Origin: Methylomonas sp. 11b
GTDB lineage: Bacteria > Pseudomonadota > Gammaproteobacteria > Methylococcales > Methylomonadaceae
Length of the DNA: 64,000 bases
Direction of reading: 5' to 3'
Assembly: GCF_000515215.1 (NCBI RefSeq)
Contig: NZ_KI911557.1
Location: 868,001-932,000 of the forward strand
Shown here: positions 2,061 to 28,618 of the stretch, piece after piece
Numbering within the stretch: position 1 is the stretch's first letter
How the letters are laid out: each line of letters begins with the position of its first letter
Notes under the pieces: generated by a model
What the model was told of the DNA's origin: nothing
Seen by the model: only the letters and a program-made list of their open reading frames with translations
Database searches by the model: none
Translations under genes and position numbers: made by a program

Positions 2061-2305
2061 AATCCAGCAGGAATTTCGGTTTTTATTTCCATATTTATCA
2101 TAAGAGCAGCCCTAAAAATTTTGACTTTGCGCTGCTTCACGCAAAAACAAAGACTTACAAACAACCCAACCACCGCAGCAAGCCCGTTGCAACGAGGTAA
2201 ATCATATTTTTAGATTTATATATCTCAAATAGGCATTACACAAACCTAGGCTGCCCGCACCTGTATTGACAGCCTTCGTTTAAACCAAGTACTTTAAAAA
2301 AAATC
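2061..2305. other. Intergenic region between cysB and the cysK leader
   Basis: No convincing ORF. It is AT-rich around 2200-2240, contains a short inverted repeat TTTGCG-N8-CGCAAA at 2126-2145, and ends with the promoter-like sequence described separately. The inverted repeat could be a regulator site, but it lacks a T-run and is not a good terminator. Confidence 0.4.
2266..2295 (+). promoter_or_regulatory. Putative sigma-70-type promoter for the cysK leader RNA
   Basis: A perfect -35 hexamer TTGACA at 2266-2271 is followed after 18 bp by a weak -10, TACTTT (2290-2295). The predicted start (about 2302) falls just before the conserved RNA element at 2306. The -10 is poor, so an activator such as CysB may be needed. 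Confidence 0.45.
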
Positions 2306-2371
2306 GCTGACCGGACCGCCGGAAGCCAGTACGCCTGAACTCATAAGCAGGCTGCTGGCTTTTTTTTGGCC
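2306..2371 (+). ncRNA. Conserved two-hairpin leader/sRNA element with intrinsic terminator, copy 1 (upstream of cysK)
   Basis: The element starts with a small CCGG-ACCG-CCGG hairpin (2311-2322), followed by a terminator hairpin (GCCAG...CTGGC, apical CCTG/CAGG pairing) and eight T residues at 2360-2367. A second copy on the - strand at 27468-27526 shares 25 identical bases at the 5' side and 20 at the 3' side. The loops differ but still pair. The terminator ends 34 bp before the cysK ATG, so this could be an attenuator or riboswitch-like leader, or a free small RNA. I do not recognise a known riboswitch class. Confidence 0.6.
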
Positions 2372-15046: not shown

Positions 15047-15556
15047 TTAACCTTTGTGCTTATGGCCTTTGCTGTGCTCTTGCTCTGTGGCATGTTCTTC
15101 AGGCTTAGGCGCGGGAGGCACGATTTTGGTAATTTTGCCGCCCTCTTCTTCATAGTTTTGCGAACCTATCGCACCCACCACTTTGAATCCCTTCTCAGCC
15201 AACAAGTCGGCGGATTTACCGGCACGGCCAGCGTGATTGGAGACGGTGACGATGGAGCGCTCCTTAGGAATAAACGGTAAAACCTTATCCAGCTCATCAA
15301 TTTGTACGTTCAAATAGACGGGAAAGGTACCGATCTTGCTGATTTCATCGGGACGACGCACATCGATAAACAACACTTGCTCGGGCTTGGCGAGCAAGGC
15401 ATCGATTTCAGCGCGCTTCAATTTTGGGGTTTTATAGGTATAAGGCCGCGCAGCCGGCGCCGCGGTTTTTTTGCCTGCATCCGCGTCGGCGGCAAACGCT
15501 ACCGGAGCGGCCAAGATCAGAGCTAATAAAGCAGCAGTGGTCGTGTTTTTCATCAA
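15047..15556 (-). CDS. Secreted rhodanese-fold protein lacking the catalytic cysteine
   Basis: 169 residues with a signal peptide (to about residue 22) and one rhodanese-like domain (about 44-140, starting LKRAEIDALL and including VLFIDVRRPDE). In active rhodaneses the loop after the central strand starts with cysteine; here it reads VSNHAGRAGKSA with Ser106 at that position, so sulfur transfer by a persulfide is unlikely. The tail is rich in histidine and lysine (HSKGHKHKG) and might bind metal. It is the first gene of the operon with the DUF1549/DUF1553 and DUF1501 genes and lies about 65 bp downstream of the predicted sigma-54 start site. Confidence 0.8.
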   Translation of the reverse strand: MMKNTTTAALLALILAAPVAFAADADAGKKTAAPAARPYTYKTPKLKRAEIDALLAKPEQVLFIDVRRPDEISKIGTFPVYLNVQIDELDKVLPFIPKERSIVTVSNHAGRAGKSADLLAEKGFKVVGAIGSQNYEEEGGKITKIVPPAPKPEEHATEQEHSKGHKHKG

Positions 15557-15629
15557 TATTTCTTCCTGTTATTAATTTTGCTAATTGCACGGTTTAGCGC
15601 GCGTAAATAAGGTTCCTCATTAGGTAAAA

Positions 15630-15645
15630 AGCAACTAGCATGCCA
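15630..15645 (-). promoter_or_regulatory. Sigma-54 (-24/-12) promoter for the rhodanese-DUF1549-DUF1501 operon
   Basis: On the - strand: TGGCATGCTAGTTGCT, with the invariant GG and GC separated by 10 bp and a near-consensus match. The predicted start is about 15620, roughly 65 bp upstream of the rhodanese-like ATG. Confidence 0.78.
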
Positions 15646-15774
15646 CTCAAAAAACACCCGCCACGAAAAACGATAATTAGCTTGTTAGTCATTGATTTAA
15701 AACGGTATATTTATTCACCACCCCACTCAATAACACTTGATAAATCCATAAATATCCAAGTAAAGCCCAAGCAA

Positions 15775-15792
15775 CTGGTGGAAATTCAGCAG
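15775..15792. promoter_or_regulatory. Activator site, proximal member of pair (rhodanese operon)
   Basis: CTGGTGGAAATTCAGCAG fits the CTGTTG-N6-CARCAG pattern. Its centre is about 152 bp upstream of the -12 element, and its partner lies exactly 32 bp further out. Confidence 0.6.
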
Positions 15793-15806
15793 GGGCGCAA
15801 CATGCG

Positions 15807-15824
15807 CTGTTGCTGGGCTAGCAC
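15807..15824. promoter_or_regulatory. Activator site, distal member of pair (rhodanese operon)
   Basis: CTGTTGCTGGGCTAGCAC has a perfect left half-site and a degenerate right half. It is exactly 32 bp from the proximal site. It is also embedded in a GCAACA-N5-TGTTGC inverted repeat. Confidence 0.5.
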
Positions 15825-15861
15825 CACACCAACCGTTGATTAACCCGGCCCGATTTATCCC

Positions 15862-15955
15862 TGATGCCCCGTTCGGGCTGAGTTCGTCGAAGCCTGAGGT
15901 GCTTGGCCATTCGACAGTTCCCTCAAAGGCATAAAGGCGAGCGGTACTGAGGGCG
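15862..15955. repeat. Dispersed palindromic repeat (REP-like)
   Basis: The sequence around GTTCGGGCTGAGTTCGTCGA and the later CATTCGACAGTTCCCTCA / CGGTACTGAGGGC resembles widespread gammaproteobacterial intergenic repeats of the TTCGGGCTGAGCCTGTCGAA type. The match is from memory of the pattern; no other copy was found in this window. Confidence 0.4.
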
Positions 15956-16065
15956 GTGTTGATAAAGTGGTTTTGGTATGTAGAAAGGAGGCATACAGAA
16001 AGGCCGAGCAGGCACTTTGTAACTTCCCGATCTGCGAAACTTGGATCTCGGCAAAAAACACCGGA

Positions 16066-16101
16066 CAAAAAAAACGGGCAAAGGATAAATCCTTGCCCGT
16101 T
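16066..16101 (-). terminator. Intrinsic terminator of the TonB receptor-lactonase unit
   Basis: On the - strand a strong hairpin (ACGGGCAAGGAT pairing with ATCCTTTGCCCGT) is followed by eight T residues. It lies 110 bp after the stop of the SMP-30-like gene. Confidence 0.85.
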
Positions 16102-16210
16102 AGAGGTTATCACCACGAGAGCTTGATGAATGATTGCGACGCCCCTTACATTCGCCAGCGCGACGATGGTTTAAGAGTCCGGTTAATTCAGATGCACCAA
16201 CAACACCATG

Positions 16211-17170
16211 TTATTTCGGCCGACTGCTGATACCGGCAGTCAGCAACGGAATTTTATAGGCCGCGCCGCGACCGACTACATATAACGTTTTCTTATCGAT
16301 ACCGGCGAATGCCAGGTTTTGCGGCTTTTTGGGTAGCGGAATCACGCCCAGAATCTCACCTTTAGCGCTGATGATTTCTACGCCGGCGTTGGAGGCAACA
16401 TACAATCTGCCTTCATCGTCCAATGCAATGCCATCGGCGCCGCTGGACCAAGTGCCGTCTTCACCTTTTTTCCAACCGTCCAACTTGGCAAAATTACGGC
16501 GATTCTGAATCGAACCGTCCGCAGCAACGTCGTAAGCCAAAATGTGTTCGCCTTGAGTATTAGCAACGTACAAGACCTTCTCGTCTTTACTCAATTGAAT
16601 GCCGTTGGGCCGTTCGATGTCGGTAGCCAACTGCTTAAGATCGCCGCCCGGTGAAATATAAAACACGCCGGGATGCGATGGCGGCGGATTAGGATTTTCC
16701 TTACTCGGCCGCGTGCCGCTATCGGTAAAGTAGATGCCGCCATTGCTGGCGCGCACTAAATCGTTGGGCCGTTGAAATGCCGTACCTTGATAGTTTTCGG
16801 CCAAGGTGTTTTTCTTGTTGGCTGGATAGACTACGCCGACTTTGGTTTTTAGGGTTTGTACTGCGACGATTTCGCCATCGGGCGTCAAAGCCAGACCGTT
16901 AGCGCCGTTGGAATTTTCAAGAAACGTCGAGACTTTATCGTCCAAGCCGATACGCACGATTTTGTTGGCCTGGGTTTCCGTGAACAATAAACTGCCGTCG
17001 GTATAGCCAATGGGTCCTTCCGTGCCGTTAAAGCCATCCTTGATTAGCTCGGCAACCACGCCACCGGCTGAGACACCGGGAATAGCCGGCGTAACCGGGT
17101 CGTCCGCGCAAGCGGCCGCCGCGTAAATCAACGCCCCAAAACCAAGTAAATATAAGTGTTTAGATAACAT
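16211..17170 (-). CDS. Periplasmic SMP-30/gluconolactonase-like beta-propeller protein
   Basis: Secreted six-bladed propeller of the SMP-30/LRE family, typically lactone hydrolases. The ATG at 17170 (MLSKHLYLLGFG) is preceded by AAGGAAA and gives a signal peptide ending near ACADD. Family segments: FNGTEGPIGYTDGSLLFTE near residue 45, RPNDLVRASNGGIYFTDSG near 130, RPNGIQLSKDEKVLYVAN near 190, and ADGIALDDEGRLYVASNAG near 240; the Glu, Asn and Asp metal ligands of the family are present. It follows the TonB receptor by 75 bp and is probably co-transcribed from the sigma-54 promoter at 20091. Confidence 0.82.
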   Translation of the reverse strand: MLSKHLYLLGFGALIYAAAACADDPVTPAIPGVSAGGVVAELIKDGFNGTEGPIGYTDGSLLFTETQANKIVRIGLDDKVSTFLENSNGANGLALTPDGEIVAVQTLKTKVGVVYPANKKNTLAENYQGTAFQRPNDLVRASNGGIYFTDSGTRPSKENPNPPPSHPGVFYISPGGDLKQLATDIERPNGIQLSKDEKVLYVANTQGEHILAYDVAADGSIQNRRNFAKLDGWKKGEDGTWSSGADGIALDDEGRLYVASNAGVEIISAKGEILGVIPLPKKPQNLAFAGIDKKTLYVVGRGAAYKIPLLTAGISSRPK

Positions 17171-17244
17171 AAGTATTTCCTTTGCAAATGTTTCGATCAA
17201 TCAGGTTGCCGAGCGGCGCTCTAACCGCCCGGCGACTATTCAAA

Positions 17245-20004
17245 TTAGAACTTGGCTCTAAAGTGCACCCCGTAGTAACGCGCATCGCCGAATGACGCGC
17301 TAGCCGCGCCGGTACCGGAAAAGTTACTGGCATTGGTAAAGTAGATGGTGTCGAAAATGTTTCTACCGACCAAATCCAGGTTGTACTTACCGTTTTTGGT
17401 ACCCACACCAATCCCGCCGTCGGTGACGTGATAGGCATCCTGCTTACCGTAACGCGACAAACTGGCGTTGTAGTTGGCTGCCGATTTAAAGCTATCGATC
17501 AGATAGGCATGCCACTGTAGACCGTAGTCATTACCGTAACCAAAGGTGAGCGGTGCCCGGTAATCTATTCCGTAGTTGGCGGTAAAGGCCGGTGCGTTGG
17601 GGATGGTTTTGCCGGTCTGATCGCAATATCCCGTGTTATTAGCCTCCGGCGGGCAAGGCGCGTTGGCAAAGTCGGTATAAATAGCCTTGTTATACGAACC
17701 GTTCAGAAACACATTCAAACCTTGAGTAATGTCCCAATTGGTTTCCAGCTCGATACCGCGCAATTGGATACCGCCAATATTGCCGAGCTGCGACAAAAAT
17801 TGGCCTGAGCGCAATGGATCGGGCGCAACCAACTGCGATTGAAAACTTTGAATATCGGTTTGGTATAAGTTGACGTTGAACACCAGCTTGCGATCCAGCC
17901 AAGTACTCTTAAAGCCAAATTCGTAGTCCATCACGTCTTCCGGTTTGACGTTTTCCGTGGCCCCGGTATTGAAGTTAAACTGCGCGGCACCGGATTTTTG
18001 GCCTCCGGCCACCGAACCGTAGACCATCAAATCTTTATTGACTTTGTAGCTGGGGTTGATTAACCAGTTTTGCGAATTCTGATCAAAACCTTGCCGCGGA
18101 GCGTCCCATTCCGGACCCAAGCGATTGCTGCGGATGGCTTTGGCAGCAGCAATTTGTGCTGCGTTGGCGCCCAATGACGCGCCCAAAGTATCCAAATTGA
18201 CCCCGCCTAAATTCCGGCTGTAGCCGGTGTTCTCCCGGCGTTCGAAAGTGTTGCGCAAGCCTAAGGTCAAGGTCGCATCATCGGTGACATGCCAGTTGAT
18301 CTGACCGTAGCCGGCATAGCTGTCAGTGGCCGGCACCACGTTTTGCGTCAACATGGTGTCGCGCATGGACGCCGCCAATAATTGCCGGGATGCCGGAGTG
18401 GCATTCAATAGGGCATATTGGCTGTTGCTTGCGTGGAAGGCGCCAGCATCAACGCCGAAAAGGCGTTGATTAAACGTATCGGCGATAGCCCGCATCGCAA
18501 ATACCCCAAATTGGTAATCGACTGGCCCGGGATCTTTAGACGCCAACCTGAGTTCCTGCGACCATTGCTCGTTTTTAACCGTCCAACCGGAGATACGCTC
18601 GACGTCAGCGGTGCTTGACTCGCCATCATGATTCGGTTCAAACAACGCATCCCGGTAAGCGGAGATAGAAGTGAAGCGATGTCCTGCCACATCCCAGTTA
18701 ATTTCAGCGGACACACCCGACCCGTCGCCGCGCGATTGGCGTCTTTCATTATTCGCCATCGCCCTAGGATCGCCGATGACGGTCACTGCTTGCCCGTTGC
18801 TGCGCAGTGTATTAAACCAATCCCTGGCCAAGCGGGTGCTGAAGGTCGTAGTCCGCAGGGTACCATCATCAAATCGCGTTGGATCGGCGATGAGTGGTTG
18901 CACGCTCATGGTTTGGGTCGAGGCGGTTTTATCGACAATCAGCCGCGCGCTCAAATCTTCGCTCGGCGTAAACAAAAATTGCAAACGGCCGCCCAGGGCG
19001 TTGGTTTCGCCTAAATCACCCTCGCTACGATGCACATCAAAGTTCTTCACAAAACCGTCGCGCTTATCGATAAAACCCGAAGCCCGGTAGGCTAATAAGC
19101 CGGGCAGTATCGTGCCTGTGGCGCCGAACTTGCCTTGCAGCGCATCGCGGCTTCCGGCAAAACCATCCACGTAATAGCTGTTTTTAAACGACGGTGCCTT
19201 GGTGGTAATGTTCAGCAAACCCAGGTTGCTGTTTTTACCTTGCAGCGTACCTTGCGGACCGCGTAACACTTCCACTTGATCCAGGTCGGCAAAGTTGGCC
19301 CAGGCCGCCCCGGTCCAGGCCCGCCAGACGTTATCCACCATCACCCCAACACTGGGTTCCATGGATTCGTTACCGCTGTTTTTACCCAAACCCCGCAAAG
19401 CAATACTGGTTTGCCGAGCGTTAGCCGACGTGACACCCAGGTTGGGCGCGCGCCGCGAGAAATCTTGTACCGACACCACGTTATCCCGCTCCAGTGTTTC
19501 CCGGTTGATTACCGCCACCGGAATCGGCACTTCCTGTAACTTTTCTTCCTTACGCCGAGACGTGACGACCACTTCCGAAAGGTCTTGCGGCTCGTCGGCT
19601 TTTTCTTCCGGCTCCGGCTCAGCAGCGGCAACGACATTGTCAGGCTCCTGGCTGCTTAACGCAGCTGCGTCGGCGTTGCCAACCGCAGCAGGCGCGGCCG
19701 CCACGCCTTTCTTGAGCAGATCCTGCTCACGCCGTTTTGAGGCTTCCAGCTCCCGGCTCAAGCGCTCGACTTGTGCTTGTAAATCGCTAACCTGGGTATC
19801 GGCAACTTGTTTGTTTCCGGTTTTTTTCGCGCTCTTTTTTACCGATGCCGTTTGGGCGGTCGCATCGTTAGCAAGTAACATTGAACCACCTGCTATTGCC
19901 ATTGCCACGCACACCGACAAACCGCGCCGATTGCTGATGTGCAGCGGCACTTTCACCGTTTCAATGTTGTCTGCCGACAGACTCCCAATTGAATATTCCT
20001 TCAC
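17245..20004 (-). CDS. TonB-dependent receptor with N-terminal coiled coil (receptor 1)
   Basis: Outer-membrane beta-barrel importer of unknown substrate. I chose the GTG at 20004 (VKEYSIGSL) because AGGTGAG lies just upstream; an ATG 48 bp further out is possible. After the signal peptide (LSVCVAMAIAGGSMLLANDATA) comes a Lys-rich coiled coil (VSDLQAQVERLSRELEASKR), then an acidic linker, a TonB-box-like LSEVVVTSRRKEEK, the plug (SVQDFSRRAPNLGV to VEVLRGPQGTLQGKN) and a barrel ending in aromatic-Arg-Ala-Lys-Phe. The coiled coil is unusual for classical siderophore receptors and is shared with receptor 2. The sigma-54 promoter and paired operators upstream place it in the local regulon. Confidence 0.87.
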   Translation of the reverse strand: MKEYSIGSLSADNIETVKVPLHISNRRGLSVCVAMAIAGGSMLLANDATAQTASVKKSAKKTGNKQVADTQVSDLQAQVERLSRELEASKRREQDLLKKGVAAAPAAVGNADAAALSSQEPDNVVAAAEPEPEEKADEPQDLSEVVVTSRRKEEKLQEVPIPVAVINRETLERDNVVSVQDFSRRAPNLGVTSANARQTSIALRGLGKNSGNESMEPSVGVMVDNVWRAWTGAAWANFADLDQVEVLRGPQGTLQGKNSNLGLLNITTKAPSFKNSYYVDGFAGSRDALQGKFGATGTILPGLLAYRASGFIDKRDGFVKNFDVHRSEGDLGETNALGGRLQFLFTPSEDLSARLIVDKTASTQTMSVQPLIADPTRFDDGTLRTTTFSTRLARDWFNTLRSNGQAVTVIGDPRAMANNERRQSRGDGSGVSAEINWDVAGHRFTSISAYRDALFEPNHDGESSTADVERISGWTVKNEQWSQELRLASKDPGPVDYQFGVFAMRAIADTFNQRLFGVDAGAFHASNSQYALLNATPASRQLLAASMRDTMLTQNVVPATDSYAGYGQINWHVTDDATLTLGLRNTFERRENTGYSRNLGGVNLDTLGASLGANAAQIAAAKAIRSNRLGPEWDAPRQGFDQNSQNWLINPSYKVNKDLMVYGSVAGGQKSGAAQFNFNTGATENVKPEDVMDYEFGFKSTWLDRKLVFNVNLYQTDIQSFQSQLVAPDPLRSGQFLSQLGNIGGIQLRGIELETNWDITQGLNVFLNGSYNKAIYTDFANAPCPPEANNTGYCDQTGKTIPNAPAFTANYGIDYRAPLTFGYGNDYGLQWHAYLIDSFKSAANYNASLSRYGKQDAYHVTDGGIGVGTKNGKYNLDLVGRNIFDTIYFTNASNFSGTGAASASFGDARYYGVHFRAKF

Positions 20005-20090
20005 GATCTCACCTATTCGAATGTTACAAAAACCAATTCGAGCCAACGCCACGACGACGCCCGCAATCCGAACTTTCTGTAACGCTCAAC

Positions 20091-20105
20091 GCAACGACCG
20101 TGCCA
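20091..20105 (-). promoter_or_regulatory. Sigma-54 (-24/-12) promoter for TonB receptor 1 and the lactonase
   Basis: On the - strand: TGGCACGGTCGTTGC, a perfect match to TGGCACG-N4-TTGC. The predicted start (about 20080) is 75 bp upstream of the receptor start codon. This is the best sigma-54 match in the window. Confidence 0.87.
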
Positions 20106-20228
20106 CAGGATGATAAACATCCGCCTAGCCATCCATTAATTAGATTTAAATAATTGAATTTAATAACTAACTTTAAAACCCAATTTATCCATCCCTCTAA
20201 CACCATAAGAAAGCCGCCAGCTGAAAAA

Positions 20229-20246
20229 CTGTTGAAAGGTCATCAG
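20229..20246. promoter_or_regulatory. Activator site, proximal member of pair (TonB receptor 1)
   Basis: CTGTTGAAAGGTCATCAG, centre about 146 bp upstream of the -12 element. It is exactly 32 bp from the next site. Confidence 0.65.
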
Positions 20247-20260
20247 TCCTTGCTGACCAT

Positions 20261-20278
20261 CTGTCTGCCTGTCAACAG
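20261..20278. promoter_or_regulatory. Activator site, distal member of pair (TonB receptor 1)
   Basis: CTGTCTGCCTGTCAACAG has CTG/CAG ends and a perfect CAACAG right half-site. The spacing of 32 bp matches the other pairs. Confidence 0.65.
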
Positions 20279-20334
20279 TTCTATTCCAAGTTTACGAGTT
20301 GGTCTGAATGGCATCTTTTGCTCCAGCTCCCATC

Positions 20335-23300
20335 CTAAATTTTCCCGCTTAGCTGAATACCGAACCAACGCGGATAAGGATCCGGCGCATAGGAATTCCA
20401 GCCTACTTCGTGATTTCTATCGTTGAAGATGTTTTTACCGATCAGGCTTAAATCCCAGTGTTTGTCGCGGGTACCTATGCCGATCGCCGCGTCCGTTCTG
20501 GCTCTGTCCCCCACCCAACCATAGGCGGATAAGGTATCGCTGTTATTGAACTCGGTTTGGTAGTTGGTGTTAAAACTGGTGTGTGCAATGTATTTGCTGT
20601 CGAAAATCGGCTTGGCATATTCGGCACCAACGTTGAAATTCCATTTGGAAGCGCCCGGCAGATACTGGCCGGTCATATCGACGTAATCCCCGGTGAGATA
20701 ACCCAGTTCATCGGGTTTAGGCGCATTTTTGTAATCCAGGTATTCGGCCACGTTATAGGCCCCGTTGAAACGGATCGACAAATCGGGAATGGTGTTGATT
20801 ACACTGTCCAATTCCACGCCATGCACCCGCACCCTGCCGACATTGCCCTGAGTCGTCGCATAGGCTGTCAAGCCGGAGCCGCCGGGCGCCAGATTGACTT
20901 CGGTTTGGAATTGATCGACCACCTGTACCGCTTGCTGGTAGTTTTTAATATCCATGACAAACGCATCGACGTTGACCACCACCGACTTATCCAGCCAAAA
21001 AGATTTAAAACCCAACTCCAAAGCATGGGTCTCCTCCGGCTTGACCGTAAAAGGCAGCCCGTTAACCGGCGCAATCGAACCGGATTTCTCGCCGTATTGC
21101 CAGGACAAATAAGTCGTGAGGTCTTCATTGATTTTATAGCTGGGCGTCAGTTGCGCGGTATACAGCACATCCCGGTAATTATCTTCGACGGTTTGATTCA
21201 AGCGACCGATTTGCGAGGCACGCAAGGTTTTGGCATTGGCGACCATGGTTTTTTGCGCGGCAGTCAACGCCGAATAGCTGGAACCGCCAAAGTACCGAGC
21301 AGCCAAGGAATCGGCCAGAGCGGTTTGCTCGGCACTATTCGCTACAGCGTCGCCCGCAACTACGCCGGTTTGCGCCGCGTTGAGCTTTCCGTAGTTGGTG
21401 GTCGATCCGAAGAAGGTGTTGGTTACCGTTTTATTCGATCCATCGGGGTTTTTGTCGGGCACGCCATCGCCGTTCTGATCCACCGTAAAGGATTGCGCCG
21501 TGTCGGAATTAAAGCCGCCCGTGGCCACATCGCGCACCGATTCCGGATTAAACGCCCCGCCAACGCCGTTTCTGGCAATATTCTTAAAGTTTCGCGACTT
21601 ACGGTCCTCATGCGTAGCTCTCACCCCGGCGGTGAGGGTAAATTTATCGGTAAAGTGCAAATCCGACTCACCGTATAGGGCGCCGGATTGGGTGCGGATC
21701 TCGGTAGATTCGAAGGTGCGCGCATCCTGCAACAAGTCTTTTAGAATCGCTTCGCCGGCACCGCGATTGCTGCCGGCATTTCTATATAAGGCATTGTATT
21801 GGCCATTGGTGGCAAACCAGGCGCCGGCGTCGGCGCCCCAACCGGCTTTCGAGTCCACATTATCCTTGGTCCATAAACCGATCACGCCGGCCTTGTAATC
21901 CAGAAAGCCGCCCGGCTTGTTGACGATTTTAAATTCCTGCGTCCATTGATTGTATTTCACCCCGCCGCCGCCATCGGCACTGATGTCAAACGGCGTACCT
22001 TCGTCGTTGTGCGCATCGAATCGATATTCGCGCACCCCGGTCCTGGAACTCAACACATGATTGCCGACTTCCCAGTCGATTAAAGCCGCCGCGCCCTGAT
22101 TGTTGACGGTTTGGCCTTTATTTTGGTCGAACCAGACCGTACCGCGTTGTTCGCCGCCAATGTAGTCGTTATAGGTAAAGCCTCGATTCGCAAAATATTG
22201 CCCGGCCGCCGCTCTTGAGCCAACAGCGCTGATCGCACCCGGACTGGTGGTATCGGTCAGTGCAAATTGGTTGCTATGACTGAAATAGCCGTTAAGTTTG
22301 GAATAAGCGGACGTGCCGTTTCGGTCGGTGAGGCTACCGTCGGCAAATCTGAAAGGCTGATCGTGATAGAAGGTCAAACCGTTTTGCAGCTGCGGCTGTT
22401 TCGGCTCAAAGTCGGCGATGAATCTGGCCGTCAGATTGGACGTTGGGGTAAATAGCAACTGGGCGCGACCACTCAAGCGATCACGGTTGTACAGGGTGTA
22501 ATTCCTGTCGTATTCGTTTTCATAAAAACCACGCGCTTTATCGACGATAAACGAACCGCGCCAGGCCAGAAAATTATCGATTACCGTCCCACCCAAGGCA
22601 CCTTGCAATATCAGCGACTCCCGTTGCCCATAGGCAACGGACAATTCTGCCGTGGGTGCGAAGGTCGGTAGTTTAGAGGTGACATTAACCTTACCCGAGC
22701 TTGCCGCTAGACCACCTTCGGTACCGCGCGGCCCGCGCGTTACTTCCACCGCTTCCACGTCGTAAAAACTGAAGTTAGCCAGCTGCGTTAAGGCGTACGG
22801 TACGCCGTCCACTGTCACACCGACGCTGGGGTCCTGGGTTTCGGTGAAACTTCGTTTACCCAAACCGCGCACCGATAGCGAGGCACCACGCGTGTTGTTC
22901 TGGTTGAATTGTACGTTGGAAGCGCGGCGGGTGATGTCGCCCAAGTCTCTGGACAATTCCCGGTTAAGCTCGGTGCCGGATACCACCGATACCGATTGCG
23001 CCACCTCGTGTAATTTCGCCAATTTGGGTTTGGCCTTCACAACCACTTCACCCAAATCCTCTTTTTGGTCTTCGTCGTTCTTGGCTAAAGCCTCAGCCGG
23101 CGCTTCATTCTGCGCGGCAGTGGTTTCTGTAGAGGTTACAGCGGCTCCGGCTGGCGCAGAACCTATTGCACCTTGCTTGATAAATTCCAATTCACGTTGT
23201 TTGGCGGCGGCAAGCTGCTGACGCAAAGCCTGATTTTCCGCTTCCAAATCGCTAACCGCTTTGCTATTTATGCTTTTGCTTTTGCTGTTTTTTTTCGGTG

Positions 23301-23451
23301 CGGCTTCCACGTCAAATGCCGACACCAGGTACACCCCGGCGATAGCCATTGCCACGCAAGTCGATAACCTGCGGCGCGCACTGATTGCTTGAGGAACTCC
23401 ATCCTGTCGAGTAGCGCTTACTGAAAAAGCACTTGCTAATTTATCGCTCAC
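20335..23451 (-). CDS. TonB-dependent receptor with N-terminal coiled coil (receptor 2)
   Basis: Outer-membrane receptor of about 1038 residues, a diverged paralogue of receptor 1. The GTG start at 23451 (VSDKLASAF) has AGGTGGA just upstream, the same context as receptor 1; an ATG 48 bp upstream is the alternative. Layout: signal peptide (LSTCVAMAIAGVYLVSAFDVEA), coiled coil (VSDLEAENQALRQQLAAAKQ), TonB-box-like LGEVVVKAKPK, plug (ITRRASNVQFNQNN, VEAVEVTRGPRGTEGG) and a long barrel with large extracellular insertions. The substrate is unknown. The sigma-54 promoter at 23543 and the divergent arylsulfotransferase gene point to uptake of an organosulfur compound or a chelate. Confidence 0.87.
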   Translation of the reverse strand: MSDKLASAFSVSATRQDGVPQAISARRRLSTCVAMAIAGVYLVSAFDVEAAPKKNSKSKSINSKAVSDLEAENQALRQQLAAAKQRELEFIKQGAIGSAPAGAAVTSTETTAAQNEAPAEALAKNDEDQKEDLGEVVVKAKPKLAKLHEVAQSVSVVSGTELNRELSRDLGDITRRASNVQFNQNNTRGASLSVRGLGKRSFTETQDPSVGVTVDGVPYALTQLANFSFYDVEAVEVTRGPRGTEGGLAASSGKVNVTSKLPTFAPTAELSVAYGQRESLILQGALGGTVIDNFLAWRGSFIVDKARGFYENEYDRNYTLYNRDRLSGRAQLLFTPTSNLTARFIADFEPKQPQLQNGLTFYHDQPFRFADGSLTDRNGTSAYSKLNGYFSHSNQFALTDTTSPGAISAVGSRAAAGQYFANRGFTYNDYIGGEQRGTVWFDQNKGQTVNNQGAAALIDWEVGNHVLSSRTGVREYRFDAHNDEGTPFDISADGGGGVKYNQWTQEFKIVNKPGGFLDYKAGVIGLWTKDNVDSKAGWGADAGAWFATNGQYNALYRNAGSNRGAGEAILKDLLQDARTFESTEIRTQSGALYGESDLHFTDKFTLTAGVRATHEDRKSRNFKNIARNGVGGAFNPESVRDVATGGFNSDTAQSFTVDQNGDGVPDKNPDGSNKTVTNTFFGSTTNYGKLNAAQTGVVAGDAVANSAEQTALADSLAARYFGGSSYSALTAAQKTMVANAKTLRASQIGRLNQTVEDNYRDVLYTAQLTPSYKINEDLTTYLSWQYGEKSGSIAPVNGLPFTVKPEETHALELGFKSFWLDKSVVVNVDAFVMDIKNYQQAVQVVDQFQTEVNLAPGGSGLTAYATTQGNVGRVRVHGVELDSVINTIPDLSIRFNGAYNVAEYLDYKNAPKPDELGYLTGDYVDMTGQYLPGASKWNFNVGAEYAKPIFDSKYIAHTSFNTNYQTEFNNSDTLSAYGWVGDRARTDAAIGIGTRDKHWDLSLIGKNIFNDRNHEVGWNSYAPDPYPRWFGIQLSGKI

Positions 23452-23542
23452 TATTCCACCTAAACGAATGTTAAAAAAATCGATATAAACCAACATCAAA
23501 ACTCTGCCGGCAACAAAATAAAACCGGCTCTAATATCAATTT

Positions 23543-23558
23543 TGCAATAGGCATGCCA
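23543..23558 (-). promoter_or_regulatory. Sigma-54 (-24/-12) promoter for TonB receptor 2
   Basis: On the - strand: TGGCATGCCTATTGCA, with GG and GC 10 bp apart and one mismatch to the strong consensus. The predicted start is about 23532, some 80 bp upstream of the GTG start. Confidence 0.82.
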
Positions 23559-23584
23559 GCAGTAAGTAAATAGCGCTAACAGGC

Positions 23585-23607
23585 GAATTACATTGGCAAT
23601 GTAATTC
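23585..23607. promoter_or_regulatory. Perfect 23-bp palindrome upstream of TonB receptor 2
   Basis: Arms GAATTACATTG and CAATGTAATTC around a single G. It lies 27-49 bp upstream of the sigma-54 promoter. It differs from the paired activator sites and could bind a repressor or another architectural protein. Confidence 0.5.
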
Positions 23608-23699
23608 ACAACTACATGTTTTTATTTATTTTTTAAATTTTCTACAAGTTATTAATCAGCGAGAACAAACAAAAAATCACTCAGCGTTTTTACGTAAAA

Positions 23700-23717
23700 C
23701 TGCTGAAACTCAAACAG
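23700..23717. promoter_or_regulatory. Single candidate activator site, TonB receptor 2 side
   Basis: CTGCTGAAACTCAAACAG resembles the CTGTTG-N6-CARCAG pattern and lies about 164 bp upstream of the TonB receptor 2 -12 element. No partner is visible 32 bp away. Confidence 0.35.
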
Positions 23718-23786
23718 CAGCTGCTGACAGAATGAATAGCCTTTGTTGTTAGCCTGAATCAGCCTTGCTGAGCACCTGATCGGCAT

Positions 23787-23836
23787 CTGTTGAATTAGAA
23801 ATACAATTTGCTGGCAGCCTGCCCGCCATTCAACAA
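23787..23836. promoter_or_regulatory. Degenerate activator site pair between TonB receptor 2 and the arylsulfotransferase gene
   Basis: CTGTTGAATTAGAAATAC (23787-23804) has a perfect left half and CTGCCCGCCATTCAACAA (23819-23836) a perfect CAACA right half. They are offset by exactly 32 bp like the other pairs. They could serve both divergent promoters. Confidence 0.45.
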
Positions 23837-24008
23837 GCTCAGCCAGAAGCCGATAGATTCCGGATCAATTTGCAGCACGGCTTGCTTGAAAACATTTCCC
23901 GGCAGCAACGGTGCATTGATGGCAAGGCCTTGATTCACGAGGCCTTTATCGGGTTTGAGTTTATTAGGTGGAGGTTTTCGGCAGGCAAATGGATTAAATA
24001 AAAATTGT

Positions 24009-24024
24009 TGGCTTGATCATTGCT
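24009..24024 (+). promoter_or_regulatory. Sigma-54 (-24/-12) promoter for the arylsulfotransferase gene
   Basis: TGGCTTGATCATTGCT, with GG and GC 10 bp apart and a perfect TTGCT. The predicted start is about 24035, 46 bp before the ATG. Confidence 0.75.
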
Positions 24025-24080
24025 TACAGCCATCCTCGAGCACCAGCACAGCCATCCGCCCGTTCATAAAGGAATAAGCA

Positions 24081-25517
24081 ATGACCCAAATAAGACCATC
24101 CGTAACCGCACGCGGCCGCAAACCAAACCGGCCATTGCGTAAATCCCAAACCTGGCAGCAAGCGGCGTTAATTGTGCTGGGTACCGCGCTTAGCGTCTCG
24201 GCCTTATCAGGACCGAGCGTGTTCCCTACAGGCACCACACGCTACGACCCGGGCAAAGCGTATAACTCGTTTGTATTGTTCAGCGGCGGCGACAACATCG
24301 CGCATCTGATCGATTTAAACGGCAATTCCGTTCACGAATGGCCGGATGCCGCCAGCCACAGCACCCTTATCAATCCCGCCGTGAGCGGCGGTAAACTGGG
24401 ACATGTATTTGTCACGCAGGAAACGACCGAAGGCAAAGGAACCGATCTGGTGCCAGGACAAGTGAGTAAGAAGATCACCAAAACCATCGCCGAGCTGGAC
24501 TGGGACGGCAAAACCGTCTGGAGCTTCGGCGACAAAGCGCCTGGCGCCGCCGCGCAACAACATCATGACTGGGCCAGATTACCCAACGGCAATACCGTGG
24601 TATTGGCTAACCTCGTGCATCCGGTGAAAGGCTTTAAGCAACCGCAAGTGCTAGACGATGTGATTTATGAAGTCAATCCGGCAGGCGAAGTGGTCTGGAA
24701 ATGGATTGCCTCGGAGCATTTGCAGGAATTTGGCTTTACGCCGGCCGAACTTAAATTGGTCCGCAACGCCGAGATTGCCGACTACCTGCATGTGAACAAT
24801 CTAAAAGTAGTCGGCCCGAACCGCTGGTATGCGGCCGGCGACCAGCGTTTTCATCCCGATAATCTATTGATCGATGCGCGCAACGCTAATTTCATAATCA
24901 TCATCGACCGCAAGACCGGCAAAGTGGTCTGGAACCTGGGACCGCACTACCCAGCCGCGTCCATCGAAGAACAACTGGCCCGCAAAGTACCGCGCCCGGT
25001 CGATCAAATCAGTGCCCAACACGATGCGCATATCATCCCGGAAGGCTTGCCCGGAGCGGGTAATTTACTGGTATTCGACAATCAAGGCATCGCCGGTTAT
25101 CCGCCGGCTCCGGTGCCGCGCACCGGCGGTTCGCGGGTGTTGGAAATCGATCCGATCAAGAAAGAAATTGTCTGGCAATACACCGGCGAGAGTTCCGGCG
25201 GCCCCAGTTGGTCGTTTCGCAGCACGCATATCAGCGCCGCCCGCCGCCTGCCTAACGGCAATACCTTTATAGACGAAGGCCAGAGCGGCCGCTTGTTTCA
25301 AGTAACAGCCGACGGCGACATAGTCTGGGAATACATCAATCCTTATTTTCGTACCGGTAAGGACGCTGTGACCGGCCACGCCACTGCCAACAATTCGCTG
25401 TATCGCGGCCAACCGGTACCTTACGATTGGGTACCGGCCGGCACACCGCATAGCGAAAAACCGGTCAGCCCGCCGGAATTGAGCAAATTCCGAATACCGG
25501 CAGTTCCGGCTTTATAA
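24081..25517 (+). CDS. Arylsulfotransferase (ASST)-family protein
   Basis: ASST enzymes move sulfuryl groups between phenolic donors and acceptors in the periplasm; the family has a beta-propeller fold. The 478-residue protein has an N-terminal hydrophobic segment (WQQAALIVLGTALSVSALSG) after a basic stretch. Propeller-type repeats include HDWARLPNGNTVVLAN, VIYEVNPAGEVVWKWIASEHL, QISAQHDAHIIPEGLPGAGNLLVFDNQ, SRVLEIDPIKKEIVWQY and AARRLPNGNTFIDEGQSGRLF. The histidines near HHDW, QHDAH and RSTHISAA are candidates for the catalytic set. The ribosome site AGGAA precedes the ATG. A cupin follows on the same strand. The true substrate may differ from aryl sulfates. Confidence 0.82.
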   Translation: MTQIRPSVTARGRKPNRPLRKSQTWQQAALIVLGTALSVSALSGPSVFPTGTTRYDPGKAYNSFVLFSGGDNIAHLIDLNGNSVHEWPDAASHSTLINPAVSGGKLGHVFVTQETTEGKGTDLVPGQVSKKITKTIAELDWDGKTVWSFGDKAPGAAAQQHHDWARLPNGNTVVLANLVHPVKGFKQPQVLDDVIYEVNPAGEVVWKWIASEHLQEFGFTPAELKLVRNAEIADYLHVNNLKVVGPNRWYAAGDQRFHPDNLLIDARNANFIIIIDRKTGKVVWNLGPHYPAASIEEQLARKVPRPVDQISAQHDAHIIPEGLPGAGNLLVFDNQGIAGYPPAPVPRTGGSRVLEIDPIKKEIVWQYTGESSGGPSWSFRSTHISAARRLPNGNTFIDEGQSGRLFQVTADGDIVWEYINPYFRTGKDAVTGHATANNSLYRGQPVPYDWVPAGTPHSEKPVSPPELSKFRIPAVPAL

Positions 25518-25540
25518 GGTAAAGATTTTCATGCAAACAA

Positions 25541-25643
25541 CCGTGGGTTTCGGAGTATCCGGTAGTGAGGTTTGGCAGACGGGTTACTGCCATTAAGTCA
25601 AAAGGAACAGACACTGAGCAACCGGATACCCCGAAACCCATGG
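25541..25643. repeat. Imperfect 23-bp inverted repeat between the arylsulfotransferase and cupin genes
   Basis: Arms at 25541-25563 (starts CCGTGGGTTTCGGAG) and 25621-25643 (ends CCCCGAAACCCATGG) match with two differences around a 57-base centre. It may be a small transposable repeat or an mRNA processing or attenuation hairpin. There is no T-run. Confidence 0.5.
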
Positions 25644-25672
25644 CGGCAACTTTCTATTTTTTGGAGATTCAG

Positions 25673-26140
25673 ATGTTACATACACGTATTCGGCCGCAGT
25701 TATCGCTACTGACCTTGGCAGTCGCATTTTCCTTTACTTATAGCTCGGCGGCAGCGGTGGAACTTGACCCCAAAGCCATTTCCATCCAATTGCCGGACCA
25801 AATTAATTGGGTCGCAAATCCCAGCGGGTCGGAAAGCGCGGTACTGGTCGGCGATCCGAACAAACCCGGCCTGTATGTGGTGCTGAATAAATGGAAGGCT
25901 CATCACAACAGCAAGCCGCATTCGCACCCAAACGACCGCTTCATCACTGTGATTTCAGGCACTTGGTGGGTTGGCACCGGCAGCGATTACGACCCCGAGC
26001 ATTTGCAACCGGTACCGGCGGGCAGCTTCGTCACCCATTACGGTAACGAAATCCATTACGACGGCGCGAAGGACGAAGACACGGTTTTACAGATTGTCGG
26101 CATCGGTCCGGCTACATCGACCCCGGCACCTGCAAAGTAA
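25673..26140 (+). CDS. Secreted cupin-domain protein
   Basis: 155-residue protein from the ATG at 25673, chosen for its GGAGA ribosome site and a clear signal peptide (LSLLTLAVAFSFTYSSAAA). A single cupin domain (about 30-145) has the histidine motif HSHPND (in KPHSHPNDRF) and a second-motif segment FVTHYGNEIHYDGA, consistent with a metal-binding beta barrel. It lies 155 bp after the arylsulfotransferase gene on the same strand and may be in its operon. The substrate is unknown. Confidence 0.75.
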   Translation: MLHTRIRPQLSLLTLAVAFSFTYSSAAAVELDPKAISIQLPDQINWVANPSGSESAVLVGDPNKPGLYVVLNKWKAHHNSKPHSHPNDRFITVISGTWWVGTGSDYDPEHLQPVPAGSFVTHYGNEIHYDGAKDEDTVLQIVGIGPATSTPAPAK

Positions 26141-26152
26141 GGTATTGCGATG

Positions 26153-26181
26153 CCGGCACCCCGCTACAGGTGAGGTGCCGG
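26153..26181. terminator. Hairpin between the convergent cupin and activator genes
   Basis: CCGGCACC (26153-26160) pairs with GGTGCCGG (26174-26181). A second perfect hairpin, GGCGAAGA-ttac-TCTTCGCC (26191-26210), overlaps the activator stop codon. There are no strong T-tracts. Confidence 0.4.
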
Positions 26182-26198
26182 AAGGAACTTGGCGAAGA

Positions 26199-27275
26199 TT
26201 ACTCTTCGCCTTCTTGATAAGCGACGGCCAATTTCCGCTGGCTATTAGCCAACATGCCGTACAACCCCAGCTTGTGCCGCAAGACATTGCGGCTAATATC
26301 CAGCAAACGCGCGGTTTGCACTTGGTTTTCTTCGCAAAACTCGAATGCCGTGCGAATCACGGTTTCTTCGATGATGTCGAACAACTTGGGCGGCGCTTGT
26401 TCGCACAAACGCAGTAGCGAACTTTCCAGCGAAGAGGTGGAAACCACCGGCCCGCTCTGCGAGACTCGTACCCCCGATAACTTAAAGTCCTCCGGACGCA
26501 AGCGATTGCCTGGGCAGACCAACAAGGCCCTATGCACCGCATTTTCCAACTCGCGAATATTGCCGGGCCAATCGTAATTTAACAAGGCCAGCTCGGTGGA
26601 AGGCGATAATTTGATTTCACCGTAGCCCAAGCGGTCGCCGTAGACTTTCAGAAAGTGCCTGGCCAAGGGCAAAATATCGCCCGGCCGTTCCCGCAACGGC
26701 GCCAAGTGAATCGCCGCCACATTGAAACGGTAATACAGGTCGGCGCGAAAATGCGACGCCGCCACCGCTTCTTCCAAATTAACATTGGTAGCGGCGATGA
26801 CTCTGACATCCACCGGCGAAGGCGTCCGCGAACCCACCTTTACCACTTCCCTTTCCTGCAATACCCGCAATAATTTCGCTTGCAAGCCCAGCGGTAAATC
26901 GCCGACTTCGTCCAGAAACAAACTGCCTTTATTGGCGGTTTCGAACCAACCTTCTTTTGTATTCAAGGCGCCGGTGAAAGCGCCTTTTTCGTGGCCGAAC
27001 AATTCGCTTTCGATGAGGTTTTCACTGAGTGCCGCGCAATTTAGAGCACCGAACGGTCCTTTGGCGCGCTTACTAAGTGCATGTACATGCCTGGCCACCA
27101 ATTCCTTGCCGGTGCCGGTCTCGCCGATGATCAGCACTGTCGCATCGCTGGGCGCGATCCGCTCGATGTGCTCCAACAGTTTTCGTGAAACCGGATCCTC
27201 AAACACCATCGCCGTGGCCCGCACCGTGTGCGACAGCTGTCGTAATTGCAATTCGTCAAATGCCAATAATGTCAT
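26199..27275 (-). CDS. Sigma-54-dependent activator without N-terminal sensory domain (SfnR-like)
   Basis: Enhancer-binding AAA+ protein that remodels sigma-54 RNA polymerase. Only about 28 residues precede the AAA+ domain, so no receiver or GAF domain is present. Motifs: Walker A GETGTGKE (51-58), GAFTGA (98-103), Walker B GSLFLDE (117-123) and a C-terminal Fis-type HTH (TARLLDISRNVLRHKL, about 318-333). In Pseudomonas, SfnR is a sensorless regulator of this type that acts in organosulfur use under sulfate limitation; that parallel is an inference from architecture and context. The AGGGGAAA ribosome site supports the start. Its own leader has a sigma-54 promoter and a paired operator, suggesting autoregulation. 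Confidence 0.87.
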   Translation of the reverse strand: MTLLAFDELQLRQLSHTVRATAMVFEDPVSRKLLEHIERIAPSDATVLIIGETGTGKELVARHVHALSKRAKGPFGALNCAALSENLIESELFGHEKGAFTGALNTKEGWFETANKGSLFLDEVGDLPLGLQAKLLRVLQEREVVKVGSRTPSPVDVRVIAATNVNLEEAVAASHFRADLYYRFNVAAIHLAPLRERPGDILPLARHFLKVYGDRLGYGEIKLSPSTELALLNYDWPGNIRELENAVHRALLVCPGNRLRPEDFKLSGVRVSQSGPVVSTSSLESSLLRLCEQAPPKLFDIIEETVIRTAFEFCEENQVQTARLLDISRNVLRHKLGLYGMLANSQRKLAVAYQEGEE

Positions 27276-27467
27276 ACGGTTTCCCCTGTACTGCGAGCAA
27301 CGATGCCGTCACTCAATAATATATCCATGAAAGATCTTTTCCTAAGATGTCAAAAATAGTGATTCGTCGCGGCATCACAAGTTAACTGCCGATACGCAAA
27401 CGCCGAACAAAAATCAGCCTTACCGTGCCCAAAGTCAGTCCACAAACTGCCGCCTTCGCTGAGCACA

Positions 27468-27526
27468 GGCCAAAAAAAAGCCAGCAGTCCTTTGGGGACA
27501 AACTGGCTTCCGGCGGTCCGGTCAGC
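27468..27526 (-). ncRNA. Conserved two-hairpin leader/sRNA element with intrinsic terminator, copy 2
   Basis: Reads on the - strand from GCTGACCGG at 27526 to an eight-T run (27479-27472) and GGCC. It shares the 5' 25 bases and 3' 20 bases with the cysK copy. The apical stem is GTCC/GGAC here rather than CCTG/CAGG, which is compensatory change. It lies about 50 bp after the predicted sigma-54 start and about 190 bp before the activator ATG. It could be a sigma-54-dependent small RNA of about 110 nt, or a terminator controlling read-through into the activator gene. Confidence 0.65.
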
Positions 27527-27585
27527 AGAAGTGGATGTTATGGAGACAAAATGCTCGGATAATAACAGCGAGATACCAGGCTCCA

Positions 27586-27601
27586 AGCATGGTTCATGCC
27601 A
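27586..27601 (-). promoter_or_regulatory. Sigma-54 (-24/-12) promoter driving RNA copy 2 and possibly the activator gene
   Basis: On the - strand: TGGCATGAACCATGCT, with GG and GC 10 bp apart and two mismatches to the full consensus. The predicted start is about 27575. Confidence 0.75.
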
Positions 27602-27652
27602 CTTCGTATTTACAGCACATAATAAAGGATTACGGGTTTTTGCGAAACACCA

Positions 27653-27670
27653 ATGTTGCCACAGCAACAT
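27653..27670. promoter_or_regulatory. Activator site, proximal member of pair (activator/RNA promoter)
   Basis: ATGTTGCCACAGCAACAT is a near-perfect palindrome with 7-bp arms (TGTTG-N6-CAACA core). Its centre is 74 bp upstream of the -12 element. Confidence 0.72.
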
Positions 27671-27684
27671 AATCTGTTGTTTAA

Positions 27685-27702
27685 GTGTTGATATATCAAC
27701 AC
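27685..27702. promoter_or_regulatory. Activator site, distal member of pair (activator/RNA promoter)
   Basis: GTGTTGATATATCAACAC is a perfect 18-bp palindrome with the same TGTTG-N6-CAACA core, offset by exactly 32 bp from the proximal site. Confidence 0.75.
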
Positions 27703-27828
27703 ATTTCCATGAGTCTGAATTTACTTGCGAAGCATTGGCCTTTTTCGCGCTAATCCAATTGAGTCGGGCTTTTTCGACAAGCCCAGTCAGCCGAAATCGT
27801 TCGCCAAACATGCCTGCTATGTTTCGAC

Positions 27829-27846
27829 CTGTTCGTATACCAGCAG
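27829..27846. promoter_or_regulatory. Activator site, distal member of pair (tatA)
   Basis: CTGTTCGTATACCAGCAG: palindromic with a GTATAC centre and CTGYTG/CAGCAG-type arms. It is 32 bp from the proximal site. Confidence 0.7.
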
Positions 27847-27860
27847 CATTTGCTGACGCC

Positions 27861-27878
27861 ATGCTGATAAATCAGCAT
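27861..27878. promoter_or_regulatory. Activator site, proximal member of pair (tatA)
   Basis: ATGCTGATAAATCAGCAT, perfect 8-bp arms, centre about 141 bp upstream of the tatA -12 element. It is followed by seven T residues and could in isolation be read as a terminator, but the 32-bp pairing favours an operator. Confidence 0.68.
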
Positions 27879-27996
27879 TTTTTTGGATATTTGCCGTTAA
27901 CCCGCATGCTTCCATGTTCGGTAACTCAAACGGGTGTTGTTGATCTGCCTGGAACACAGGGGTAATTTGGCGTATTCCAGCAATCACCCAGCATAT

Positions 27997-28012
27997 TGGC
28001 CCTTATCTTGCT
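27997..28012 (+). promoter_or_regulatory. Sigma-54 (-24/-12) promoter for tatA
   Basis: TGGCCCTTATCTTGCT, with GG and GC 10 bp apart and a perfect TTGCT. The predicted start (about 28023) lies 70 bp before the tatA ATG. Confidence 0.72.
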
Positions 28013-28092
28013 GAAAACCACACTGGAAAAGTTAAGTCAATATTCGCAAGCGACTTACCTAAAATCGGCAACTTTTAACTTTGGAGAAAAAA

Positions 28093-28320
28093 ATGGGCTT
28101 GAGCGTTCCCCACTTATTAGTAGTTTTAGCAATCGTGGTCTTGGTGTTCGGCACCAAGCGCCTGAAAAATGTCGGCGCCGACCTAGGCGATGCGATCAAG
28201 GGATTTCGTAATGCTGTAAAGGAAAGCGAAGACGCCGAAGACGCCAAAGCCATCACTCAGCTCTATCAGCAGGAATTATCCAACGAATTGATAAGTGAAA
28301 CTGACCGCACCAAGGCTTGA
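28093..28320 (+). CDS. tatA: Twin-arginine translocase subunit TatA/E (orphan copy)
   Basis: 75-residue Tat pore subunit. The start at 28093 ([24 protein letters not shown]) has GGAG seven bases upstream. One short N-terminal membrane helix is followed by the hallmark FGTKRL hinge, then an amphipathic helix ([21 protein letters not shown]) and an acidic tail. No tatB or tatC is nearby, so this is an extra copy. It has its own sigma-54 promoter and paired operators, which suggests it is made together with regulon proteins that need Tat export, such as the DUF1501 protein. Confidence 0.9.
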
Positions 28321-28365
28321 TACGTCGGGTTGCGGCCTCAGGCTAAAGACGCTCAGACCAGCGCC

Positions 28366-28383
28366 CTGTTGCCAGAGCAGCAG
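28366..28383. promoter_or_regulatory. Activator site, distal member of pair (RND pump)
   Basis: CTGTTGCCAGAGCAGCAG matches the activator-promoter site ATGTTGCCACAGCAACAT at 14 of 18 positions and lies 32 bp from its partner. Confidence 0.7.
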
Positions 28384-28397
28384 CATTTGATCGCCGT

Positions 28398-28415
28398 CTG
28401 TTCGGCTAACAACAG
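28398..28415. promoter_or_regulatory. Activator site, proximal member of pair (RND pump)
   Basis: CTGTTCGGCTAACAACAG, centre about 120 bp upstream of the -12 element. Confidence 0.7.
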
Positions 28416-28512
28416 CTTAGAACATTTACCCGGTAAAAATTATGCTGCTGATTCTCACCTGAGCCCAAACGCATGCAGTGCACTATGCTTCGAAAAATCT
28501 GTGCAGATTGAT

Positions 28513-28528
28513 TGGTATAGCACTTGCT
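28513..28528 (+). promoter_or_regulatory. Sigma-54 (-24/-12) promoter for the RND operon
   Basis: TGGTATAGCACTTGCT, with GG and GC 10 bp apart and a perfect TTGCT. The predicted start is about 28539, 80 bp before the ATG. Confidence 0.74.
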
Positions 28529-28618
28529 TAAGACAAACATTAAATTGCCTTTGCCGGAAAAACGATAGCTTTAAAACCGGCCGGACCTCGCTAACCAATC
28601 GGATCTCCCGAGAAATCC

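Follow-up and report, generated by a model that had tools for sequence, protein, structure and literature searches.

Pairs of 18-bp dyads spaced by 32 bp as probable enhancers of an SfnR-family sigma-54 activator in Methylomonas sp. 11b

The 64,000-nucleotide stretch of the Methylomonas sp. 11b genome analysed here (positions 868,001 to 932,000 of contig NZ_KI911557.1, numbered from its first letter and hereafter termed the window) contains pairs of 18-bp dyads that recur in front of several transcription units. These pairs are very probably upstream activating sequences (UASs), or enhancers, of a sigma-54 activator of the SfnR family, with the product of the gene at 26199-27275 as the likeliest candidate, and the genes behind them appear to constitute a sulfur-scavenging regulon. 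An earlier note on this DNA listed twelve site starts; all of these are present, and the start-to-start distance is 32 bp in every pair. The putative UAS pairs, with their retention in the eight closest orthologous regions, and the degenerate sixth pair are as follows.

15775..15824 (sites 15775-15792 and 15807-15824), minus strand: pair 1, upstream of the rhodanese/DUF1549-1553/DUF1501 genes; 8 of 8 regions
20229..20278, plus strand: pair 2, upstream of TonB receptor 1; 8 of 8 regions
27653..27702, plus strand: pair 3, upstream of an RNA element and the activator gene; 8 of 8 regions, aligned
27829..27878, plus strand: pair 4, upstream of tatA; 7 of 8 regions, aligned
28366..28415, plus strand: pair 5, upstream of the RND pump; 8 of 8 regions, aligned
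23787..23836 (starts 23787/23819), plus strand: degenerate pair, between TonB receptor 2 and the arylsulfotransferase gene

The consensus first proposed, CTGTTG-N6-CARCAG, points to sites that exist but is too tight, being matched exactly by only one of the ten main sites (28366) and with one to three mismatches by the other nine; TGYTG-N6-CARCA is the better description. When up to three mismatches per site were allowed, six pairs at spacing 32 were observed in the window, whereas 60 simulated first-order Markov sequences averaged 0.083. The arrangement is far more frequent than by chance; this was the first of two checks that the earlier note had suggested. Spacing 3 is commoner in the window than spacing 32 (8 pairs), which reflects slippage within CTG/CAG triplets, and the largest count at any single spacing in the Markov sequences was also 8, the spacing concerned being unrecorded. 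A sequence-only pair model, trained on 30 pairs from 12 genomes, was used to scan the 5.4-Mb genome, with 150 of 2644 first-look candidates scored. The scan returned the five good window pairs and one further good pair, while the next best match reached only E = 0.14. The sixth good pair (G000:C1:790485-790531, locus L145) lies outside the window, about 78 kb before it, and precedes genes for a 2Fe-2S protein and a Tat-type molybdopterin subunit.

The second check, conservation in orthologous promoters, drew on 20 regions from related genomes, each comprising an ortholog of the activator gene with its surroundings and roughly 7-18 kb in length. In the window and these 20 regions together, with at most two mismatches in 20 core positions, 41 pairs were found at spacing 32, the next best count between spacings 17 and 70 being 8 (spacing 35). 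With three mismatches allowed, the counts were 52 at spacing 32, 23 at 35 and 15 at 29, the secondary peaks corresponding to a 3-bp slip of the main spacing. At this latter threshold a pair is present in 14 of the 20 regions. In the eight closest (L118-L125) the five good pairs are kept in 39 of 40 promoter cases, the exception being the tatA pair of L122, which is degenerate, and in alignments of pairs 3, 4 and 5 the motif positions are conserved and the spacer bases vary. Neither check, in the form in which it was run here, refuted the earlier note's reading. In L120 the interval between the tatA pair and its promoter has an 11-bp gap relative to orthologs, approximately one helical turn. 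A test of 17 distances, merged manually by target, yielded p = 0.18 for a period of 10.5 bp and p = 0.013 for one of 11.0 bp, without correction for the four periods tried, and we make no claim for helical phasing between pair and promoter.

The pairs lie upstream of matches to the -24/-12 element, as is expected of sigma-54 enhancers, and sigma-54 itself is encoded in the genome. A scan with a simple consensus found, in each of seven gene-ward regions, a match pointing at the corresponding gene; two plus-strand control stretches had none at the same threshold, at which the whole window contains 56.

15629..15646, minus strand: GTGGCATGCTAGTTGCTT, 128 bp from pair 1
20089..20106, minus strand: GTGGCACGGTCGTTGCGT, 122 bp from pair 2
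23542..23559, minus strand: CTGGCATGCCTATTGCAA, toward TonB receptor 2 (20335-23499)
24008..24025, plus strand: TTGGCTTGATCATTGCTT, toward the arylsulfotransferase gene; invariant in 7 of 7 aligned genomes
27585..27602, minus strand: GTGGCATGAACCATGCTT, 51 bp from pair 3
27996..28013, plus strand: TTGGCCCTTATCTTGCTG, 118 bp from pair 4
28512..28529, plus strand: TTGGTATAGCACTTGCTT, 96 bp from pair 5

Both matches in the gap between TonB receptor 2 and the arylsulfotransferase gene are conserved in 7/7 aligned genomes. At loci hit by the pair model, the best outward-facing -24/-12 match scores at least 11 in 30 of 34 cases and the best inward-facing one in 2; these 34 distinct loci (35 minus one duplicate) include many orthologs and are not independent.

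The protein encoded at 26199-27275 (minus strand) is assigned to the SfnR family of sigma-54 activators by its domain content and by its relatedness to a homolog encoded beside sfnG and msuE. It contains an AAA+ sigma-54 interaction domain (PF00158, 233.7 bits, residues 24-189) with the GAFTGA motif, and a C-terminal Fis-type helix-turn-helix that scores below the Pfam cut-off (PF02954, 20.1 bits compared with 22), the alignment to ZraR extending through residue 336. The AAA+ domain begins at residue 24 of 358 and the protein is thus devoid of an N-terminal sensor domain, as are members of the SfnR family. Its 80% match is from Methylomonas sp. SURF-2, and relatives approximately 55-62% identical occur in Pseudomonas, Herbaspirillum and other genera.

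The distribution of the pairs follows that of this gene. In a survey of 61 genomes, in which pair-model matches were counted at E <= 0.01 and activator relatives at E <= 1e-100, matches were found in 25 genomes, comprising 25 of the 27 that encode an activator relative and none of the 34 that do not (Fisher test, 4e-15). Within the genus the corresponding figures are 22/23 and 0/14, and outside the 12 training genomes 13/15 and 0/34. The attribution of the pairs to a sigma-54 activator, as the earlier note had it, is supported at the level of sequence by their position beside -24/-12 matches, their conservation in orthologous promoters and their co-occurrence with the activator gene. Similar pairs extend to other taxa. 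In 37 SfnR-like loci, 26 of the 43 non-coding pairs (at most two mismatches) have a spacing of 30-33, and 11 have a spacing of 32, two of which are one place read in two registers; non-coding DNA makes up about a sixth of this sequence. No such pair, coding or non-coding, was found in 42 loci of more distant activators. At E <= 1 the pair model gives 15 matches in the SfnR-like loci, many of them weak or partial, compared with none in the 42 others. The neighbours of SfnR-like genes in these taxa include genes of sulfur metabolism: in Herbaspirillum (L012, whose homolog is 60-61% identical to the activator) SfnG and MsuE exceed their cut-offs, SfnB-like neighbours in L022 and L030 fall below theirs, and in a Nitrospira metagenome-assembled genome (L016) cysA-, cysK- and serine-acetyltransferase-type genes adjoin the SfnR-like gene. 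The same Nitrospira locus, assigned to another phylum subject to possible transfer or contamination of the assembly, has four non-coding spacing-32 pairs (12392, 16132, 18745 and 19754) around that gene.

The two dyads of a pair are accompanied by a further half-site in the linker. Among 39 distinct spacing-32 pairs, selected blind to the linker and read throughout in the better of two orientations, a perfect TGYTG stands at linker index 4 in 29, whereas each of nine other registers has at most one. The half-site follows the left half of the first dyad by 21 bp and precedes that of the second by 11 bp, and is present in four of the five good window pairs.

~15798-15802, minus strand: TGTTG, pair 1
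20251-20255: TGCTG, pair 2
27675-27679: TGTTG, pair 3
27851-27855: TGCTG, pair 4

At further loci it occurs in 11 of 14 (15 were tried and one dropped), the model that located them having itself included the linker. The degenerate pair at 23787/23819, which the earlier note correctly placed at 32-bp spacing, is only a partial match to the model (E = 1.6) and retains the left half of site 1, the linker TGCTG (23809-23813) and the right half of site 2. It belongs to a longer array of half-sites that starts at 23700, with blocks conserved in 7/7 aligned genomes. This array (23700-23836, in the divergent gap between TonB receptor 2 and the arylsulfotransferase gene) comprises the left-type half-sites CTGCTG, TTGTTG, TTGCTG and CTGTTG together with weaker ones, which recur roughly every 10-12 or 21 bp and are partly conserved in the seven genomes.

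The genes that the pairs and promoter matches precede in the window are listed below.

15047..15556, minus strand: rhodanese-like protein (21.9 bits, just below the Pfam cut-off of 22.2)
12647..14983, minus strand: PSD1/PSCyt2 (DUF1553/DUF1549) protein
11079..12542, minus strand: DUF1501 protein, whose N-terminal SRRDFL resembles a Tat signal
17245..20052, minus strand: TonB-dependent receptor 1
20335..23499, minus strand: TonB-dependent receptor 2
24081..25517, plus strand: arylsulfotransferase (ASST) family protein
28093..28320, plus strand: tatA (TIGR01411 above cut-off)
28619..31795, plus strand: RND (ACR_tran) transporter, followed by an HlyD-type adaptor (31802-33019)

Judged by this gene content the regulon is probably one of sulfur scavenging. 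Its predicted targets are the two TonB receptors, the arylsulfotransferase, the rhodanese/DUF1501 genes, tatA, the RND pump, the leader of the activator's own gene and the molybdopterin/2Fe-2S oxidoreductase.

That leader contains a conserved RNA element, found by following the 27653/27685 pair. The element, a second copy of it, the sulfur context and the linker half-site had been overlooked in the earlier note.

27472..27527, minus strand: conserved RNA element, consisting of GCTGA, a small CCGG hairpin and then a GCCAG..CTGGCTTTTTTTT terminator
2305..2368, plus strand: second copy, directly before cysK (2402-3379), which is followed by a serine O-acetyltransferase gene (3376-4305)

Between the promoter ending at 27602 and the activator gene the layout is GCTGACCGG-N4-CCGGAAGCCAG, a loop and CTGGCTTTTTTTT. 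At E <= 0.01 a covariance model of the element returns 75 matches, distributed over 40 of the 61 relatives; across 274 genomes of the class, 3 have matches at E <= 1e-4. The gene neighbours were counted for the 52 strong copies in relatives (E <= 9e-7), the 23 weaker matches lying outside this count: 49 precede genes of four kinds, namely cysK in 24 cases, the activator gene in 12, a family 2A encapsulin gene in 10 and cysE in 3. Three strong copies (L178, L218 and L238) do not stand before any of these genes, and the same is true of the class match L216. The encapsulin label derives from a single N-terminus, whose match to NF041162 (6.5e-22) was below the full-length cut-off, the other nine being assigned by similarity to it. 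Encapsulins of the family 2A type increase under sulfur starvation in a cyanobacterium, according to excerpts of PMC8049743. The element also occurs in genomes that lack the activator (G001, G003, G007, G019, G020 and G035). Rfam has no match at gathering score in the whole window, the best sub-threshold match to the element's stretch being sX5 (17.1 of 50 bits, E = 0.13), and the 107-nt leader folds with no unusual stability (z = -1.57). A third match in the genome (3836338, E = 0.16) was dropped, as it lies within a coding frame. The element is a candidate for a new sulfur-linked cis-regulatory RNA; a leader terminator is favoured because it stands close before several start codons, an independent small RNA being the possible alternative, and attenuation is its presumed mode of action.

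The spacing of the pairs has a close counterpart in a well known system, and the novelty of the architecture, at which the earlier note hinted, is not supported. In the glnA-bipA gap of E. coli K-12 two GCAC-N6-GGTGC sites (2209 and 2241 of L219), which we take to be NtrC sites, precede a sigma-54 promoter with exactly 32 bp between their starts. The two systems differ in that the half-sites are GCAC/GGTGC there and TGYTG/CARCA here, the glnA linker has no TGYTG at the corresponding place, and NtrC has a receiver domain, which the window activator lacks. SfnR and SfnR2, the sigma-54 activators of organosulfur metabolism in Pseudomonas, resemble the present case in the 55-62% identity of their relatives to the activator and in the similar pairs, at spacing 30-33, near SfnR-like genes; the predicted targets here, however, comprise TonB receptors, an arylsulfotransferase, tatA, DUF1501 and an RND pump, and the likeness is one of proteins and neighbouring pairs. 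Tandem palindromic sites are described as very frequent for such activators in the available extracts of PMC6296734. Extracts of two further papers describe several dyads as the scaffold of a hexamer, through three essential enhancer sites for NorR (PMC2941729) and three 18-bp sites for GcsR (PMC4894688), in contrast with the two full dyads and one half-site found here. The CbrB subsites of Pseudomonas putida also lie on one DNA face, but those described in the same extracts of PMC6296734 are non-palindromic, form no dyads and vary in spacing, whereas the dyads here are fixed in spacing and accompanied by one half-site. AauR at aatJ of P. aeruginosa has two motifs resembling a 14-bp consensus 233-278 bp upstream (PMC7962211, in part), which would be 32 bp apart if they filled the ends of that 46-bp stretch; their sequence is different, and a linker half-site goes unmentioned in the portions of PMC7962211 available. 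Given the glnA spacing and the tandem and triple sites in these accounts, a 32-bp pair is ordinary for its class. It is the linker half-site at a fixed position, the regulon and the linked RNA element that are apparently undescribed. The literature searched contained no description of the operator, the half-site, the regulon or the RNA element, a search that did not extend to most subscription papers, among them those on the SfnR operator, and novelty in print is thus not established.

It could be argued that the pairs are chance occurrences or a dispersed repeat of no regulatory function, as the DNA is rich in CTG/CAG and single-site matches number 136 compared with 79 expected. The excess at spacing 32 (6 compared with 0.083 expected), the conservation of the motif while spacer bases vary and the lack of any pair-model match in the 34 genomes without an activator relative leave this explanation hardly credible. 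Operators of a repressor or of another sulfur regulator, such as one of the LysR/CysB type, would be in keeping with the LysR regulator gene within the window (1074-2060) and with a title, cited in PMC8234197, which places SfnR under CysB regulation in Pseudomonas. The pairs, however, stand 51-128 bp upstream of -24/-12 matches in outward orientation, and their presence follows the sigma-54 activator gene, exactly so in one direction, making such operators very improbable. A closer competitor is the activator's own paralog (1862842-1863864), which is 58% identical to it and could bind the same sites, either as the main binder of the same type of enhancer or jointly with the activator. In percent identity, Pseudomonas homologs often stand slightly nearer to the paralog, and in G017 a pair-model match adjoins the second homolog. 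In the genome of Methylomonas sp. 11b, by contrast, no pair-model match lies near the paralog and five of the six are within 13 kb of the 26199-27275 gene, while genomes with a single such gene (E <= 1e-100; for example G006, G012, G023, G024, G025, G028, G031 and G036) retain 5 to 9 matches. We consider the paralog unlikely, whether as principal binder or as a partner that shares the sites. On orthology to SfnR the measures disagree: all 38 loci found with the window activator have a higher bit score against it than against the paralog, yet many share a higher percent identity with the paralog. About 1.7 kb before the paralog there is an SfnG-like N-terminal fragment (G000:C1:1861002-1861100, L240) that covers 33 of 350 profile positions, below the cut-off, and is apparently a gene remnant; the genome has no intact SfnG above the curated cut-off.

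Several observations, in addition to the paralog, weigh against reading the pairs as enhancers of the 26199-27275 protein. Six of the 20 regions around activator orthologs contain no pair even with three mismatches allowed, and G005 and G039 encode an activator relative yet have no pair-model match. The model's training set consists of 12 of the 27 activator-bearing genomes, three of the untrained ones (G028, G031 and G036) are near-identical relatives, and its weak matches across the 61 genomes are partial. Covariation within the dyads is modest and gives weak support, with 81.1% of cells paired compared with 77.4% in shuffles, and pairs changed on both sides numbering 4 compared with 3.2 (145 of 500 shuffles being equally high). 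The linker half-site is weak in the RND pair (TGATC, 3/5) and perfect in only 5 of the 12 pairs from other taxa. The promoter scan relied on a simple, assumed -24/-12 consensus. Enzymes for sulfonates or sulfones were not found in the regulon, and the case for sulfur scavenging rests on gene content. Finally, it is from sequence that we infer binding by the 26199-27275 protein, the seeding of a hexamer, activation and the sulfur signal.

If the pairs are indeed enhancers of this activator, two of its dimers would occupy the two 18-bp dyads, three helical turns apart, and the linker TGYTG, which follows the left half of the first dyad by two turns and precedes that of the second by one, would probably dock one arm of a third dimer. 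The five half-sites, on about one face of the DNA, could then seed the hexamer that contacts the sigma-54 polymerase at the -24/-12 element. The activator's sigma-54 promoter would feed the hairpin-plus-terminator leader that its gene has in common with cysK, cysE and family 2A encapsulin genes, such that transcription would end there when sulfur is plentiful and pass when it is scarce. The combined proposal, in which an enhancer of two and a half sites seeds the hexamer (two full dimers and one half-anchored) and the sensorless activator obtains its sulfur signal through the terminator leader of its own gene, is one that we put forward only tentatively and regard as somewhat doubtful.

This study offers a testable operator for a family of sulfur-related sigma-54 activators and describes a probable methanotroph regulon that would link genes for uptake across the outer membrane, for Tat export and for an arylsulfotransferase. 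The linker half-site, by virtue of its fixed position, may provide a handle on how a hexamer assembles on an enhancer that falls short of three full dyads, while the RNA element could explain how a regulator that lacks a sensor domain is tuned to sulfur.

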